Below, piece after piece: positions 51,638 through 64,000 of a stretch of DNA of 64,000 bases. Position 1 is the stretch's first letter; each line of letters starts with the position of its first letter. Under the pieces are notes generated by a model. That model was not told the origin of the DNA. It was given only the letters and a program-made list of their open reading frames with translations, and ran no database searches. The DNA lies in assembly GCA_004297305.1 (NCBI GenBank), contig SCTR01000009.1, positions 62,001 to 126,000 of the forward strand, given 5' to 3'. This DNA is from Actinomycetota bacterium (lineage in GTDB: Bacteria; Actinomycetota; Actinomycetes; S36-B12; FW305-bin1). Position numbers and translations under genes: made by a program.

Positions 51638-54217
<2,580 letters not shown>

Positions 54218-54683: not shown

Positions 54684-55349
54684 CTACGCCTCTTCACGGT
54701 CCGGGAACAGGTAGAACGCGATCTTCGGCAACCTGACCAGCCCCCGCCCGAGTGCGGCGGTGAACAGTTCCTTAGCGAGGTGCTCGAACTCCGGAGCGAG
54801 GAAGCTGGCGGCCGCGTCAGCCACCTCGGGGTCCTCGGCAGGGTCGTCGGCGCGGAGCATCACCACGACCGCGCCACGGATGTCGTCGCACCAGTCCTGG
54901 GTCGCTTGCGCGAGCGGTTTGATCGCCCCGGCCACCCCGTCAGCCATCAGCCGGATCAACGCCTGACCTTCGCGACGGTCGAACAGCCGATCCAGCGCGG
55001 CCACGATGTGCTCACGCACCACCTCAACATCAGCACCCACTGGCGCGGGCGTGCCGTCGAGGAACGCAAGGGTGCTCGCCCGCATGTGACTGATCGCATC
55101 CAGCGCCAGCCCCTCCTTCCCCTTGCCGGGGAAGTGGTGGTACATGCTGCCCTGACCGATGCCCGAGCGTTGCTGGATCATCACCGGGCTCGTCGCCTCG
55201 AACCCACGCTCCGACAGCAACTTGCATGCCGCGGCCACGAGCTTCTGCTTCGAGTCATACGCCGGACGCCCCGGACCCCGCCGCTGCTCCACCACCTGAT
55301 CGCTCCTCGCCGCCTGACGGCCTGATCCGGCCGCGCTGCCCAATTTCAT
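54684..55349 (-). CDS. TetR family transcriptional regulator
   Basis: 221 residues. The helix-turn-helix covers KLVAAACKLLSERGFEATSP to GIGQGSMYHHFPGKGKEGLA (about 33-80), and the ligand domain has the TetR_C LmrA/YxaF-like layout with KPLAQATQDWCDDIRGAVV. The ATG at 55349 lies inside the right inverted repeat, so the protein probably represses its own gene by covering the start. The frame extends upstream to 55745 without homology. It is divergent from the methyltransferase gene and placed between the recombinase module and the defence genes, so it may control either or both. Confidence 0.85.
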   Translation of the reverse strand: MKLGSAAGSGRQAARSDQVVEQRRGPGRPAYDSKQKLVAAACKLLSERGFEATSPVMIQQRSGIGQGSMYHHFPGKGKEGLALDAISHMRASTLAFLDGTPAPVGADVEVVREHIVAALDRLFDRREGQALIRLMADGVAGAIKPLAQATQDWCDDIRGAVVVMLRADDPAEDPEVADAAASFLAPEFEHLAKELFTAALGRGLVRLPKIAFYLFPDREEA

Positions 55350-55388
55350 ACAGAGTAGTACGGACCTTGACCTGCAAGACGCGTGACC
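55341..55388. repeat. Right copy of 48-bp inverted repeat, overlapping the tetR start
   Basis: Reverse complement of 54623-54670 with seven mismatches. It includes the tetR ATG (55347-55349) and the dyad CGTAC-N6-GTATG. The remaining 227 bases to the methyltransferase start show no gene. Confidence 0.75.
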
Positions 55389-55615
55389 TCCCAGATGGGT
55401 TCTTGGACGGGAAAGGAACTCTGGCATCCCAGGGCGGAGGCTGGACGGGGGTGTGGGTTGAGGTTTCACATCGCGGCTGCCTTCATCGACTCTGCACGAC
55501 CGCTGCATGTCGGCTTCAGAAATGTCAGTGGGTTCTGGGAGACTTGCAGACACGGCGGAGCGAGACCGCTGGCCCTGGCCGAGGCCAGATGGGAGTGACC
55601 AGACGAGGAGGCGGC

Positions 55616-56989
55616 ATGGCGTCCGGAGCACCAGCCTTCGAGTTCGTCGACCTCTTCGCCGGCCTTGGTGGCTTCCATGTCGCACTCGAAAGCCTCGGCG
55701 GCGAGGGAGTGTTTGCAGCCGAATGGGACTCGACGCTGAACGCACTCTACAAAGACAACTTCGGCATCACGCCTTGGGTAGACGTGAACGATCTGAGCGA
55801 TGAGGCGACGATCGCGCGCGAGGTACCGGAACACGACGTCCTGACCGCCGGCTTCCCTTGCCAGCCGTTCTCGAAGGCTGGCGAGCAACTGGGATTCAGT
55901 CACACGCTTCAAGGCAAGCTGTTCTTCAAAGTGCTGGCGATTCTCAAGGAGAAGCGGCCACGGCGCTTCATCCTCGAGAACGTGCCGAACATCATGCGCC
56001 ACCAGAACGGCGCGACTCTGGCCACCATCCGCAAGGAACTCGAAGACCTCGGCTACACCGTCGATGTGCACAAGTTCTCGCCGCACGAGTTTGGAGTGCC
56101 GCAGATTCGAGAGAGGGCGTACTTCGTCGGCTCCCTGGACGGACTTGAAGGATTCCAGTGGCCGACGCCTGCTCGGCCGAAGACGGACATCAGCAGCGTC
56201 CTCGACAGAGATGCGAAGCCGAGTCGCGTGATCCCGGCTCAGACGCTGCGAGCGATCGACATGTGGGATGACTTTCTCAAGCTCGCGCCGGAGTCGCTGA
56301 AGCTCCCGTCGTTCCCGATCTGGTCGATGGAGTTCCGCGCGACCTACCCATACGAGGACGCCACGCCGCCAGCGATCTGGAAAGAACTCGGCCCTCGCGA
56401 CTTGGACAGTGCGCTCGGTAGCTTCGGGTTCGGGCTGAAGGGATTGGCGAAGGAAGCGCAGTTCGAGTTGCTGCCGAGTCATGCTCGCAGGCCCGCCGAC
56501 CTCAAGTTCCCCTCGTGGAAGCAAGCATTCATCCGCCAGAATCGACAGTTCTACTGGGCGAATCAGAGGTGGATCGATCCGTGGCTCGATCAGTGGAGGC
56601 CGTGGGAGTTGCCGTCCAGCCTTCAGAAGTTCGAGTGGAACGTGCAAGGCGGCGAGCGACGAATCGACAAGTATGTTTTGCAGGTGCGGGCCTCGGGCAT
56701 TCGCGTGAAGCGGACTTCGACGGCTCCCAGCCTCATCGCCATGACGCACACTCAGGTTCCTATTCTCGGCAAGAACCTCGTCGGAGTCCGTCGCTACATG
56801 ACCCCTGCCGAGTGTGCAGCTCTACAAAGCCTCGGCTCGATCTCGCTTCCAGAAGGTGACCTTCGGGCATACAAGGCTCTCGGCAACGCTGTCAACGCAG
56901 ACGTGGTTCGCGCGATCGCTGAGCCGCTTCTGCGGGGTCTCGACCAGTCTTCAGCGGCTTCTGAGGACTCGGAAAGTGCTGCGGCGTAA
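55616..56989 (+). CDS. C5-cytosine DNA methyltransferase (DruM/DrmMII-like context)
   Basis: 457 residues. Motif I FVDLFAGLGGFHVALE (residues 10-25), motif IV with catalytic Cys82 in AGFPCQPFSKAGEQLGF, motif VI RRFILENVPNI, motif VIII QIRERAYFVG, and at the C-terminus motif IX (VRRYMTPAECAALQSLG) and motif X (AYKALGNAVNADVVRAI). The target-recognition region is about 250-380. It methylates cytosine in an unknown sequence. GAGGAGG four to five bases before ATG 55616 sets the start, although the frame is open from 55226. No restriction endonuclease accompanies it; the next two genes suggest a host-marking role in a defence system. Confidence 0.93.
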   Translation: MASGAPAFEFVDLFAGLGGFHVALESLGGEGVFAAEWDSTLNALYKDNFGITPWVDVNDLSDEATIAREVPEHDVLTAGFPCQPFSKAGEQLGFSHTLQGKLFFKVLAILKEKRPRRFILENVPNIMRHQNGATLATIRKELEDLGYTVDVHKFSPHEFGVPQIRERAYFVGSLDGLEGFQWPTPARPKTDISSVLDRDAKPSRVIPAQTLRAIDMWDDFLKLAPESLKLPSFPIWSMEFRATYPYEDATPPAIWKELGPRDLDSALGSFGFGLKGLAKEAQFELLPSHARRPADLKFPSWKQAFIRQNRQFYWANQRWIDPWLDQWRPWELPSSLQKFEWNVQGGERRIDKYVLQVRASGIRVKRTSTAPSLIAMTHTQVPILGKNLVGVRRYMTPAECAALQSLGSISLPEGDLRAYKALGNAVNADVVRAIAEPLLRGLDQSSAASEDSESAAA

Positions 56990-57082
56990 CCCGGTGTACC
57001 GGCTCCGGCCTCTTGTCGCGGCACCGATGTCGGGACCCCTCGCTAGCCTGGGATGCACAGAGTGGTGTGGGGGAGACTGGCC

Positions 57083-60046
57083 GTGAGTTCCGAGTACGAG
57101 CGCGTGAGCGAGGCGATCGCTGACGTCATGTTCGGCTCCGCTCAGGCCGGGCGACCGGTCTATGCGCTTGCGGACACCGAGACGATTCGGCGCGTGCTCC
57201 AGGCTGCTGAAACCGAGGATCGGACGCTCGCAGGGCTGTCGGCGGTCGTCAGATCGTCGCTACAAGTAGACGAGGCTGGCGTAGCCCCGTTTCGCTGGCA
57301 GGCCGAGGCAGCGCAACGCCATCGGCGCTCGCCGCTTGAAACTCCGCCCGCGCTCCCCATTCTCGTGGCGCTGTCGATCGCCGCAGAACAGATGCAGGCG
57401 GACGGCGACCTGGCGGCCCACAACTACTACTCGCGACTGCATCGGCTCTTGCATGTCCCGACGACCGAGTACTTGCGAGTCGAGAACGACTATCGCCGGG
57501 TCGCCGATCTGCTGTGGGGATCGCTGAACTCCTGGCTCGAAGCTTGGGACGGTGAGCGCGGAATCCCGACGGCCTACGCCGTCGGCGGCCACGCCTTCAT
57601 CGGGCTGCCGATGTCGCAGGCAGTCGTCCGGCAACACGATCGTGCCGGCCTCCACGAACTCTTCGCTATTGAGGGCATGACCCCGGGTCTGCGCATCTCG
57701 CCGAACGACATGAGTCTCGCAATGGACCCCTATGCGACGGTCACTCCGAGCCTCCCCCTCAGTTCGCATCTTGCTCGTCTCTGGCGGGATTCGGCGGCCC
57801 GAGAGCGCATCGTCAATGCCGCTTGTCTCGAACTCGAAGCATGGGATGGGTCGGGGATCGAATCGGTCGCCTCTGCGCGACCCGTCGTCACGACGCGCCT
57901 GCTGGCGTTCTTGCGTACATTCCCTCGCAAGTCGATTGAGTTCAACCTGATGCTCCCGTACCGCTCGGAAGGGCCGGACATCGCCCGGTTCCAAGTCGCC
58001 GACGAGGAGTCCATTGTCCCGACCGTCGCCGGGCCCGGTGGCTCCACGCGGCTCTCCGGTGCTGAGGGAGTCAGCGCTGCGTCGCTCGTCGGGGAGCAGC
58101 TAACTGGGGAGTTCGGGGATGACGAGAGTCGCCCCTTCGGTCGTCGCCCGAAGCGAGTCGCTCCGCTCCGATGGGACGACCTTCAGGGGGCATTCGTCGA
58201 GATCGAGCGTATTTCGCTCGGCGAGGACAGCATCGTCCTGGCACGGTCGGACGCGCGCCAGCGGGTCGAGACTCACCTTGCGGCTCACGCCCGACCGGGA
58301 TGGCATGAACTTGTCGACCTCCCAGGTGCGCCGGAGGGGTGGGTGGTTTACGAGCACGTCCAGATCGTGTCCGCGCCGACCGGGCAACTGCACTTCGATC
58401 TCTTGCCACTCGCGCCCCGCGCGCGGACGAGTCTGACGCTGCGCGGGGGATTCGTACTTCCCGGGTTGCTTCGCAAGTGGTCGGTGATGGAGCCACCTGA
58501 GGTCGTCGCCCTCGCCGCTGGAGCCTCCTCGGTCGGCGTTCGCGTTTACGGCGGCACCCGTGTCGACCCGGCCGAACTCATCGCTGAGTCCCTACAGCCC
58601 GGCGAGCTCGCGGTGCTTCCGCTCATGGATCAGGGCCTAACTGACGGTGAGTACGTCGTCGCGATGTTCGTAGACGACGCGAATAAGCCGTCGTCAACGG
58701 CGCTCCTCCGACTGCGATCGGCAAGCACTCCGCAGTTCCGCGTCGAGGACGTCGATATCCGTTTGGTCTACTCGCCTGATTCTTCGCCGCGCTGGCCGTT
58801 GACCGCTGGCCCCGCCGAGTGGCCGAGTCATGTCAACGGAGCGAGGACAGTTGGTCTCGAACCGCGCCGCGACGGCGGCACAGTGCCGATGCCGGAGTTC
58901 GTTCCCCGAGAGCGAAGCGCGTCTACCGCATCGGTTGCGAAGACTCGGGTGGGCGTGCCGATGGCGAGCGACTCGTGTCTCATTACCGGGATGCACCGAT
59001 TCCTGCTCCCGCCCGTGCTCCCCGGCCAGGCACCTACGCGGAGCATCGAGGGCGAGTGCACGACCTGCGGGCTCGTGCGTCGCTTCGCTGGAACCCCCTG
59101 GGCCGCGAAGAGGAAGGATGGCGCGGCCAAGACGATCGTTGTCCCGGAAATCCCGCCGGTGATCGAGTCGGACGAGCCAGACTTCGAGGTCGCGTTCGAC
59201 GCACTGAACCACGTCGGGACCGGCTCGTTCGGAGCGTTCGAGCGAATCGCCGCCCAGGTCGAGGGCTCGGGCCTGTTCGCGGACTCGTTCCTCCGACGGC
59301 TTGAAGTCGTAGGTCATGTGGACGTAGCCAGAGACGACTATCTCCAGGTGACCGAATGGGCGGTGAACACGTCCACGCTCGTTCCGACGGGTGACGGGTT
59401 GTGGGTGCTCATCGGGTCGCGCTCCAGCGCGCTGCTGGAGCAGCTCGAGGAGTTGCTCCGCACCGGCGCTGTCGTGCGCACGAGCGTTGATGCCGAACTC
59501 GCCCGCGTAGAGGTCGCTGGCACGCTGCCGGTCGGTCCATTGGCCGACGCCGGGATCGCTGTTCTGGAGACCTCACCGGTCAAGGACATCGTTGAGGCGT
59601 TGCCGCCACTCAGTGAGGTGGCGACATCGCTCAAGCGGGTAATCGTGCCGAGGCACCGGTCTGCAGAGTTCTGGGACACGACCTCGGCCTCGTGGCACCC
59701 TGCGACGTCGCTGGTCAGGGTTGGCTCATATCGGCTCAAGGACTTCGGCTCGACCTACGCGATCCGCACCGCCGATGACATTGCAAGCGGCACGATCGGG
59801 CTCGGAAACGCGCAGATCGTGAAGCACATCGCGAACCTCTGGGCTCGTGACCCCCTCGTTGGCTACAACTCGCGCAGCGGCTCAGTTGTCACGCCTCTTG
59901 GCGCGGATTTGCCGGCCTTGTATGGGCGCGCCCTCGCGCTTTGCTCAGGACGAGCACCGCGAGAGATCGTGAATCACCGGATGCTCCAATACCCGTCAGT
60001 GCCGCGCGCCGTCGCGGACGTCATCTACGATCGAGTGAGCCGGTGA
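57083..60046 (+). CDS. 987-aa protein of unknown function coupled to the helicase (DruH-like candidate)
   Basis: A large, soluble, mostly ordered protein with no domain I can name. The N-terminal part is helical ([32 protein letters not shown]). Middle parts look like beta-rich repeats ([32 protein letters not shown]). A possible zinc site comprises Cys632, His638, Cys659 and Cys662 ([14 protein letters not shown]). A C-terminal [19 protein letters not shown]-containing segment resembles an adaptor more than an enzyme. GTG 57083 has GGGAGA upstream; the open frame reaches 57053. Its stop overlaps the helicase start (GTGA). Size and position match the partner of DruE in Druantia type III, but I cannot confirm homology by eye. 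Confidence 0.75.
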
Positions 60047-63000
60047 GCAGCATGTCGTTCCCCACCCCCGTGAAGATCGCCGATGACCTCCGCGACGCGT
60101 TTCTCCGATACATCGACACCGCCTACGCGCTGCTGGACCAGGCCCTCATCGAAGAGCGGCGGCGCCTGCTGCTCGAAGGGCAGGGCAACCTGTTCGCCCC
60201 GCTCATGCTCGAACCCGTCCTACCCTACGACGGGGTCGCGTCAGTCGCCGAGGCGGCGAGTCAGGCCGATGTCGACGCACGTGATCTCGGCGACGTCATC
60301 AGGGCTGTCTTTGGCGTTACGCCGGATGCGCTCGCTGGCGTCAAGCTCCGTAAGCACCAAGCGGTAGCGCTTGCAACGCACTTCGCGCCAGGGACCGCGC
60401 ACAACCCAGTTGTGACATCAGGCACGGGGTCTGGCAAGACGGAGTCCTTCTTGATACCGCTCTTGAGCCGGATCGTGGCTGAAAAGCGGTCAGCAGCGGC
60501 ACTGTCTCCGGTCCACGAGTGGTGGGATCTGAAGCGGCAGAGCGACAACTGGCAGCCGGCGCGAACAGTTGGAGCGACCCCGGCAGCAGTTCGATCGGTC
60601 ATCCTCTACCCGACCAATGCGCTGGTCGAGGATCAGGTTGCGCGGCTCCGCCGGGCCGTCCGCGGCCTGCGGGATCAGGAGTCGCCTATCGACCTCTGGT
60701 TCGGGCGTTACACCGGGGCGACGCCGGGCTCAGGTGGAGTTCCGACCGGGAAGGTCTCAGCACCCGCTACTGCTGACGCGGCCCGTGACATGCGGGAGCT
60801 ATCGCGTCTCAACGCGCGGCTCGCCGAACTCAACGACCCGGAGTTGATGGCTCAGTTCCAGGACCCCTACGCTGGCGAACTCATCACCCGGTGGGACATG
60901 ATCGCCACCCCACCCGATGTGCTCGTCACTAACTACTCGATGCTCAACGTGATGCTGATGCGCGACGTCGAGGAGCCCATCTTCGAGTCCACTCGGCGGT
61001 GGCTTCAGCGATCGTCGGATCACGTCTTCACTCTCGTAGTCGACGAATTGCACCTGTACCGTGGAAGCACCGGGGCCGAAGTCGGGATGGTCGTCCGAAA
61101 CCTGGCATCGCGGCTCGGGCTTGAGCCTTCTTCCGACCAGTTCAGGATCATCGCGACCAGCGCCTCCCTCCCAGGGGATGACTCGGGTCTGGAGTACCTG
61201 GAACGATTCTTCGGCGTCGACAGAGCGTCCTTCCTGATCGAGCCTGGGCAGCCGCGGCCGCTGGTGCCAGAGAACAAGCCGACTGCTGGCGATGTGCTGA
61301 GTATTGCCCCGAACGAGCTGCCGGAAGCTGCTGCGAGAGATCGCTGGGCGGAGACGATCGCTGCTGCGTGCGCTGACCCTGGCGACGGGCGCCCCAAGGC
61401 CACGCGAATTGACACTGTTGCGACTCGCCTATTCGCGGACGATCCGCTCGCATCATCGGCGCTTGCGACGATGCTCGTTGGACTCGCAGACGCGGCGAAG
61501 CCCGCGGTCCAGTTCCGCGGCCACGTCATGATGCGAGGGATGCGTGGGCTCTGGGCCTGCGCTGACCCCGCCTGCCCCGGTGGCACCGATTCAGAGCCTC
61601 GGCGAGTAGGTCGGATGTATGACACGCCGCGGTCGACCTGCGCCGACTGCGGCGCACGAGTGCTTGAACTTCTCTACTGCTTTGAGTGTGGCGATGTCAG
61701 CCTCGGGGGCTACGTCGTGGACCGACCCGACCGCGGGGCTGTCATGCTCTCGACGACTCCGGTCACGCCTGGTGAGAACTCGGGTGACTTCGTGTACCGA
61801 AGGAACGACGATGAATACCGATGGCTCTGGCTCGGTTCGCCGGTTCCCGATTCCCCCAGCCGTCACAAACTCCCCGCCGACATGGATGAGAACCAGGCCA
61901 CCATCGAGACCAACTTCGGGGCCGCGACCTGGAATCCCAAGCTCGGGTCGCTCATTCTCGGCAACTCGCCCGACGGCATCCCAGCAGTCGTCCTCAGCCA
62001 CAACGCGGGCGATGACAGCGGATTGGCACTCCCCGCGCTGCCGGAAGCCTGCCCGCGATGCGGTGGGAGTCAGGACAACCGAGATGCTGCGGTCTACTTC
62101 GCCGGCAATGTCCGATCGCCGATTCGTGCACATACGTCTGGCCGCGCGCAGCTCAACCAAATGGCGGTCTCTCAGTTGTTCCGCAGCCTCGGGTCGGAGG
62201 CGGCCGAGTCGAGGACGATCGTCTTCACCGACAGCCGGGACGACTCCGCGCGCATTGCCGCCGGGATCGCGCTCAACAACTTCCGCGACCAGGTGCGACA
62301 GGTCGTCCGGCAACTGCTCCACGGGCGCGAGAACCCTGTTCCGATTCTGCGCGCACTCCTGCGTAACGAGCTGGATGGTGATGGCCTCGAACGCGCTGAG
62401 ATGCTGCGTTCCAGCCGTCGGGAGCTGTTCGACAAGCTCCGACTGGAGAGTCTCGGTGCCGCTGACGCATCGGACTTGGCGACGATCGCTGCCGCAGAAA
62501 GGGAGACCGAATCTCTGCCGTGGTCTAGGCTCATCCACGATGCCGAGCGGGTGATGCTTGAGGTCGGCGTGAACCCGGCTGGCCCGGGACCGTCGGTGGC
62601 AGAAAGCGAGGGTGACGCCCCTTGGTATCGCGCCTACGCGCCGCCGATCCGCAACGCCTGGGAGCCGCTGACCGACGCGATAGCGCGGCCCATTCGCCAG
62701 GACCGCTATCGGCTCACTGCGACCGCCGTCGCAGAGGCCGTCTTCGACCGTGCCTCGCGCGACCTCGAATCGACCCGCCTTGGAGTCGTGAGGGCACGGC
62801 CGCTTGCACCCGACGGCTGGGGTTTCTCGACGGAGATCGCGGGGGACGTGGTCGCGAGCGTCATCCGGCTACTCGGGATCGCGAAACGATTCGAGGGCGG
62901 GTACGCGGCTCGATCGAACTCAGCACCGAAGGTCGTCGGCACCTACCTCAAGAGGGTCGCAGCGAAGCAGCAGGTCGACTGGCAGACGCTGCTGTCGAAT

Positions 63001-64000
63001 GTCGGCGAGTTCCTCCGCGAGGGCGGGATCGTTGACGAGACATGGGCGCTCAGAACTCAGACTGGGCAGGATGCCCTTGAACTCAGGACCCCAGGCGACA
63101 AGGTCTGGGTCTGTGACAACTGCAGCACGACTCATCTGCACCCATCGGCTGGTGTCTGCACCAATGAGGAATGCCCGAACGGCGTGCTGCGCGAGGAGGA
63201 GTGGTCTGAGGAGCTCGACTACTACGGATGGCTCGCCTCGCAGCCGCTTCGACGTATGCGCGTCGCTGAGCTGACGGGCCAGACGCGGCTCGCTGACCAG
63301 CGGACGCGACAACGTCTGTTCAAGGGCGCTGTGCTGCCGGCGCCCGCCGAGAGTGGACTCGCTGACCCGCTTGACCTGCTTTCGGTAACGACCACGATGG
63401 AGGTCGGTGTCGACATCGGCTCCCTCCGAGCTGTTGCGATGGCGAACATGCCGCCCCAGCGGTTCAACTATCAGCAGCGCGTCGGTCGGGCTGGACGCTC
63501 CGGTCAGCCGTTCTCTTTCGCGGTCACCGTGTCGCGCGACCGCGCGCACGATGACTATTACTTCCAGGCGCCGGAGAAGATGACCGCGGCCGATCCGCCA
63601 CCACCGTTCATCGACTTGTCGCGACCGCGGATCGTTCGCCGTGTGATCGCTGCGGAGCTTCTGCGACGGGCATTCCTCGCCAGTCAGAATCCACCTCGGA
63701 GAACCGGCGACAGCATCCACGGCACGTTCGGCTCGGCGAGTGATTGGGCGTCGCGGCGCGCGGACGTCGAGGCATGGCTCCAGGTATCGAAGGATGTTCC
63801 AGAAGTCTGTGAGCGGTTCAGCGCGTACACCGCCCTCGATGTCGACGACCTCAAGAACTGGGCGCGGACTGGTCTGGTGACCGACATCGACGAAGCCGTC
63901 GGTAACCCGTACTTCCAGCACACCGAACTCAGCGAGTTGCTTGCGAACGCCGGCGTGCTCCCAATGTTCGGTTTCCCGACCCGGGTCCGTCCGCTCTACT
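60043..64000 (+). CDS. Giant SF2 helicase, DruE-like, truncated by the window edge
   Basis: 1,319 codons visible, no stop before 64000. Helicase motifs: Walker [11 protein letters not shown] (about 126), Ia [14 protein letters not shown], Walker B variant DELH (about 334), [25 protein letters not shown] (about 726), [13 protein letters not shown] and [14 protein letters not shown] (about 1146). Cys clusters lie between the two RecA lobes (CADPAC, CADCG, CFECGD, CPRCGG) and before motif V (CDNC...C). This organisation, the length and the N-terminal [20 protein letters not shown] resemble DruE/DUF1998 helicases; a DUF1998 domain would lie past the edge. The start is GTG 60043, overlapping the previous stop, or ATG 60052. 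Confidence 0.88.

Follow-up and report, generated by a model that had tools for sequence, protein, structure and literature searches.

The operon and its surroundings

We re-read the window (64,000 nucleotides, positions 62001-126000 of an actinobacterial contig, from a genome of 2.68 Mb) and found three ORFs in one direction, encoding DruM, DruF and DruE, at the positions where an earlier note on this DNA had correctly placed a C5-methyltransferase, a 987-aa protein and a helicase. DruM, a C5-cytosine DNA methyltransferase of 457 aa (PF00145, PDLC00034), occupies positions 55616..56989 of the forward strand. On the same strand, DruF follows at 57083..60046 (987 aa; identified by the profile DruF2 PDLC00016 at E=0, alignments and an AlphaFold2 model), and DruE, a YprA-family SF2 helicase of 1784 aa (DruE2 PDLC00015; DEAD, Helicase_C and MZB/DUF1998 domains), begins at 60043, overlapping the end of DruF at 60046 in the GTGA that had been described. 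A longer DruF could start at the ATG at 57053, but the GTG at 57083 is the better start, because GGGGGAG lies just upstream of it and the alignment of the relatives begins there. The source contig runs past the window, and DruE extends beyond position 64000 to a stop at 65397 (L002:12398), 1397 bp outside the window. Reading on past 64000 had been proposed as a check for the DUF1998 end of the helicase and for further genes: that end is present, but DruE is the last gene of the operon, and a profile search of the downstream contig revealed a type I-C cas operon instead of a further Druantia gene. The operon is real and intact, a three-gene Druantia-type unit of a DNA methyltransferase, DruF and the DruE helicase with a presumed anti-phage function.

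The operon presumably lies in a mobile element, because a large serine recombinase gene is found beside a tRNA gene upstream of it. The recombinase gene (52640..54217, reverse strand, C-terminal end approximate; Pfam Resolvase, Recombinase and Zn_ribbon_recom) adjoins a tRNA-Ala (GGC) gene (52521..52595, forward strand; ARAGORN), the 3' end of which is a likely attachment site. Similarity to an element of Tersicoccus phoenicis begins at 52572, within this tRNA gene. The related large serine recombinases lie at tRNA-Ala(GGC) in the window and in a further genome (G419, L046) and at tRNA-Val(TAC) in Tersicoccus (L004:5480-7179), and the element seems to use different tRNA ends. These features support the mobile element proposed by the earlier note, although a search of about 60 kb downstream for a second copy of the tRNA end, which would mark the right attachment site, gave nothing. 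Beside druM, a TetR-type regulator is encoded on the reverse strand (54684..55745; Pfam TetR_N, E=5.2e-10), the true start of which is probably downstream of the ORF start. Between the recombinase gene and cas3 there is no unassigned large ORF.

A small HTH (resolvase-like) ORF follows druE (L002:12706-13251; L004:18439-19269 in Tersicoccus), with 82% nucleotide identity over 278 bp between the two elements. The type I-C CRISPR-Cas system just downstream of the window (L002:13148-19723, L003:1147-8381) comprises Cas3, Cas5c, Cas8c, Cas7c and Cas4, as assigned by profile, and an array of 100 near-identical repeats with 99 spacers and no duplicates. None of the spacers convincingly matches the loci analysed here.

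Relation to the Druantia types

The PADLOC scores of DruE, DruF and DruM exclude a chance match, and the assignment of the operon to the Druantia family made in the earlier note was borne out. DruE matches the DruE2 profile over residues 8-1780 with 1500 bits (E=0), compared with 1326 bits for DruE4, 565 for DruE1, 371 for DruE3 and about 33 for DrmA. Its C-terminal end, beyond the window, is intact and carries the MrfA Zn-binding (DUF1998-type) module, with MZB PF09369 above the cut-off. DruE is therefore a large YprA-family helicase with a DUF1998/MZB module, as is characteristic of the Druantia family. Related solved structures are 9wae and 9tu7; a literature search found no paper on 9wae. 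That the operon could instead be DISARM or another YprA-helicase system, which the earlier note had named as a possible refutation and to which the weak DrmA match (E=6e-9) might point, is refuted to near certainty, with DruE2 far ahead of DrmA, cas genes rather than drmB/drmC downstream, and DruF present.

DruF matches DruF2 with 1025 bits over nearly its full length (residues 13-996 of the ATG-started ORF). DruM matches Pfam DNA_methylase (E=1.9e-59) and, over its full length, the DruM2 profile PDLC00034 (235 bits, E=2.3e-70), although the generic profile MTase_II PDLC03272 scores about as well (242 bits); the methyltransferase had rightly been described as type II-like. The 987-aa protein had been compared to the single large partner of type III, and a core of two proteins, a large partner and DruE, is indeed common to both systems. 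However, no DruH is present among the PADLOC matches of DruF (997-aa form) at E<=0.01, and the PLD nuclease domains that have been described in type III (PMC13192584) are missing from DruE. We rejected the type III reading on the profile scores.

DruF consists of a helical N-terminal section, a beta-rich centre, a CxxC Zn-like site (C632, H638, C659 and C662) and a C-terminal domain (59288..60046) resembling DruL of type IV Druantia. In isolation, this domain (the last 250 residues) matches DruL4 PDLC00057 with E=7.8e-17, and the match recurs in five relatives. Because the C-terminal quarter matches DruL, the 987-aa protein looks like a fusion of DruF and DruL in one chain. An AlphaFold2 model from 23 sequences reached moderate confidence (mean pLDDT 75; an earlier model from 7 sequences was poor, at 58.5). 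Foldseek searches with the better model gave no confident PDB relative of the fold at E<=0.001; two marginal matches to phage tip proteins (TM about 0.08) were not relied on, and the beta-rich middle gave short, only weakly fitting Ig/FNIII-like matches (3d1m, 3idu). A search of PDB chains with a DruF profile gave no match, and no DruF was found in viral contigs; of the helicase, phages yielded two fragments only. Proteins of this size are already known to the PADLOC curators, since the DruF2 set includes profiles of 1011 and 1030 positions. We found no paper describing a DruG-less branch with fused DruF in our literature search.

Type II is defined by DruM, DruF, DruG and DruE and has been reported only from Proteobacteria in the PADLOC survey, whereas type IV comprises DruE, DruF and DruL without DruM and DruG (PMC8565338). 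The operon in the window shares with type II its best profiles, DruE2 and DruF2, and the C5-methyltransferase. It differs in its actinobacterial host, in the length of DruF (about 1000 aa with the DruL-like C-terminus, compared with about 690 aa in type II) and in the absence of DruG: nothing in the whole genome matches the profile PDLC00024 (939 positions) at E<=1, which is why we do not file the operon as type II. With type IV, it shares the lack of DruG and the presence of a DruL domain. Yet that domain occurs only fused to DruF and not as a separate gene, DruM is present, and DruE scores higher with DruE2 than with DruE4 and branches apart in the DruE tree. The gene set matches no published Druantia type exactly.

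With the DruE2, DruF2 and DruM2 profiles all matched and DruG alone missing, the operon might be a canonical type II system that recently lost DruG, in which case the copy in the window could be degraded or inactive. We consider this very improbable. DruG is also missing from all ten fused-DruF relatives that were searched, which refutes a recent local loss; moreover, the ORFs are intact, conservation of the DruF-DruE block extends to Tersicoccus, and the fused DruF has the DruL-like domain found in type IV. The most fitting name for the operon is a DruG-less II/IV variant, on a branch between types II and IV. The earlier proposal of a hybrid or new subtype holds in that no published type fits, but the mixture is of types II and IV instead of II and III, and it does not stand alone: a DruF of about 1000 aa occurs in at least 14 other loci, 13 of which join the window in one DruE clade.

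Related loci and the histories of the three genes

We found fused DruF in Tersicoccus phoenicis, several actinobacterial genomes and two alphaproteobacterial plasmids. In the DruE tree, the 14 fused-DruF loci (the window and the 13 relatives with a DruE sequence) form one clade with full support (100/100), separate from nine loci in which DruF and DruL are split or DruF is divergent. Within the clade, the window pairs tightly with Tersicoccus, and a long stem leads to this pair.

DruF and DruE adjoin in every complete fused locus. DruM is found near them in 11 of the 13 fully covered actinobacterial fused loci, on varying strands and sides, and shares their operon in the window, in Tersicoccus and in L029 and L082; the remaining two loci (L030 and L083) have none within about 17 kb. 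Other genes are attached in places. DruK, a PD-(D/E)XK Cas4-like nuclease with a profile in PADLOC-DB and, in our literature search, no paper, directly follows DruE in six loci (L029:16403-17482, L032:1544-2626, L031, L074, L079 and L082). A gene with an MTaX1 domain or a related one lies near DruM in four (L076, L077, L078 and L082), and a UvrD-like gene is part of the plasmid loci. The window and Tersicoccus loci contain none of these genes. Elsewhere in the genome of the window, DruK has just weak matches (E=7.8e-7 and 0.02), located on a different contig, which we take as other PD-(D/E)XK proteins.

Two gene neighbourhoods stood out among the relatives. In L030, which lacks DruK, a 222-aa protein coupled to DruE (L030:16242-16910) has no Pfam, PADLOC or NCBIfam match, and its H-G and DGC motifs appear caspase/CHAT-like by eye. 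On an Alisedimentitalea plasmid (L016:20440-25150), genes for a UvrD-like protein, a C5-methyltransferase and an MvaI/BcnI-type restriction enzyme come after those for fused DruF and DruE.

The Tersicoccus locus (NZ_MRDE01000038.1) has the same three-gene order and recombinase as the window, and its DruF and DruE are 95% and 96% identical to those of the window. In contrast, the two DruM proteins are only 65-66% identical, and the Tersicoccus element is located at tRNA-Val and not at tRNA-Ala. At the nucleotide level, positions 57071-65414 are 93.6% identical, a block that starts 12 bp ahead of druF and ends 17 bp past druE, whereas the flanks are 70-82% identical (druM region 70%, recombinase 81%). 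Distances at fourfold-degenerate sites are 0.18 for DruF and 0.19 for DruE, compared with 0.75 for the recombinase and 2.1 (saturated) for DruM. Selection on the proteins therefore cannot explain the block, and the two copies of DruF-DruE descend from a more recent common ancestor than the sequences on either side.

Comparison of identity matrices from eight loci, a small sample in which related loci are not independent, gave a correlation of r=0.99 between DruE and DruF (permutation p 2.5e-5) and of r=0.36 between DruE and DruM (p 0.04). DruF diverges faster than DruE (27-35% versus 40-44% identity), and the DruM of the window is 34-36% identical to that of most relatives. The opposite combination to that in Tersicoccus is seen in L029 and L077, where DruM is 88% alike and DruE merely 43%. 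Since DruM differs between nearly identical DruF-DruE pairs and is also similar beside dissimilar ones, these comparisons show that it has been swapped: DruF-DruE forms a tight core, and DruM appears to be an interchangeable add-on to this fixed pair.

A proposed mechanism

A literature search found no published mechanism for Druantia types II and IV. In type III, the sensor is probably DruH, and DruE combines helicase and nuclease and loads on intermediates that contain 3' ssDNA (PMC13192584). In Mycolicibacterium, DruH and DruE are sufficient and block phage DNA circularisation and replication (PMC13316683). In the window, neither DruM nor DruF nor DruE contains a recognisable nuclease. An alignment of 23 DruE proteins retains the DUF1998 cysteines, but no nuclease residues are conserved after them at the C-terminus, and we rejected a nuclease in DruE for lack of conserved catalytic residues. 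In this respect the C-terminus agrees with a published account of type II, in which the Vsr domain is inactivated (PMC12458937).

We hypothesize that the operon represents a DruG-less II/IV branch in which DruF senses, DruE acts on phage DNA intermediates and DruM is accessory, a reading to which we assign a probability of roughly 60%. The DruF-DruL fusion would sense infection and license DruE, which would load on ssDNA-containing phage replication intermediates and block or expose them. Because no nuclease is recognisable in the operon, destruction of the DNA would be left to host nucleases or to an unrecognised activity of DruF; alternatively, the phage DNA may be blocked without being cut. 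The exchangeable DruM would modify host DNA or add an accessory restriction-modification-like layer, and would not be a matched specificity partner of DruF-DruE. We infer the role of DruM and the source of cleavage, as well as sensing by DruF. Since the fold search gave no confident PDB match, DruF is proposed as the sensor by analogy and from its faster divergence relative to DruE; faster divergence of DruH than of DruE has been reported in type III. The constant pairing of DruF with DruE, the faster divergence of DruF and its beta-rich middle support the sensor model without proving it.

A bolder reading, which is possible at slightly under even odds, is that the fused-DruF loci constitute a separate DruG-less subtype. 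Fused DruF-DruL and DruE would form an autonomous core of two proteins to which DruM, DruK and MTaX1-type genes attach and from which they detach, and the operon in the window would be a minimal form able to defend without encoding a nuclease.

The frequent presence of DruM, found in 11 of the 13 covered loci, counts against our preferred explanation, as it argues that DruM is needed for something. Together with the shared operon in four loci, it would fit a system resembling restriction-modification, in which host DNA carries DruM methylation at certain sites and DNA that lacks it at those sites is attacked by DruF-DruE. We regard such a system as unlikely. The histories of DruM and DruF-DruE are decoupled in both directions, an argument that is weaker if the DruM targets are identical; L030 and L083 have no DruM nearby; and type III is functional with no methyltransferase (PMC13192584, PMC13316683). 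Given the swaps, a matched self-mark is less likely, unless a single target is common to all DruM, and most likely DruM protects host DNA loosely or adds a layer of its own.

Through its DruF-DruL fusion, the fused-DruF branch connects types II and IV, and its loci reveal the genes that move together. The exchange of DruM between nearly identical DruF-DruE pairs would provide a clear test of methylation as a self-mark versus an accessory function, and the operons of Tersicoccus and the window amount to a natural swap experiment.
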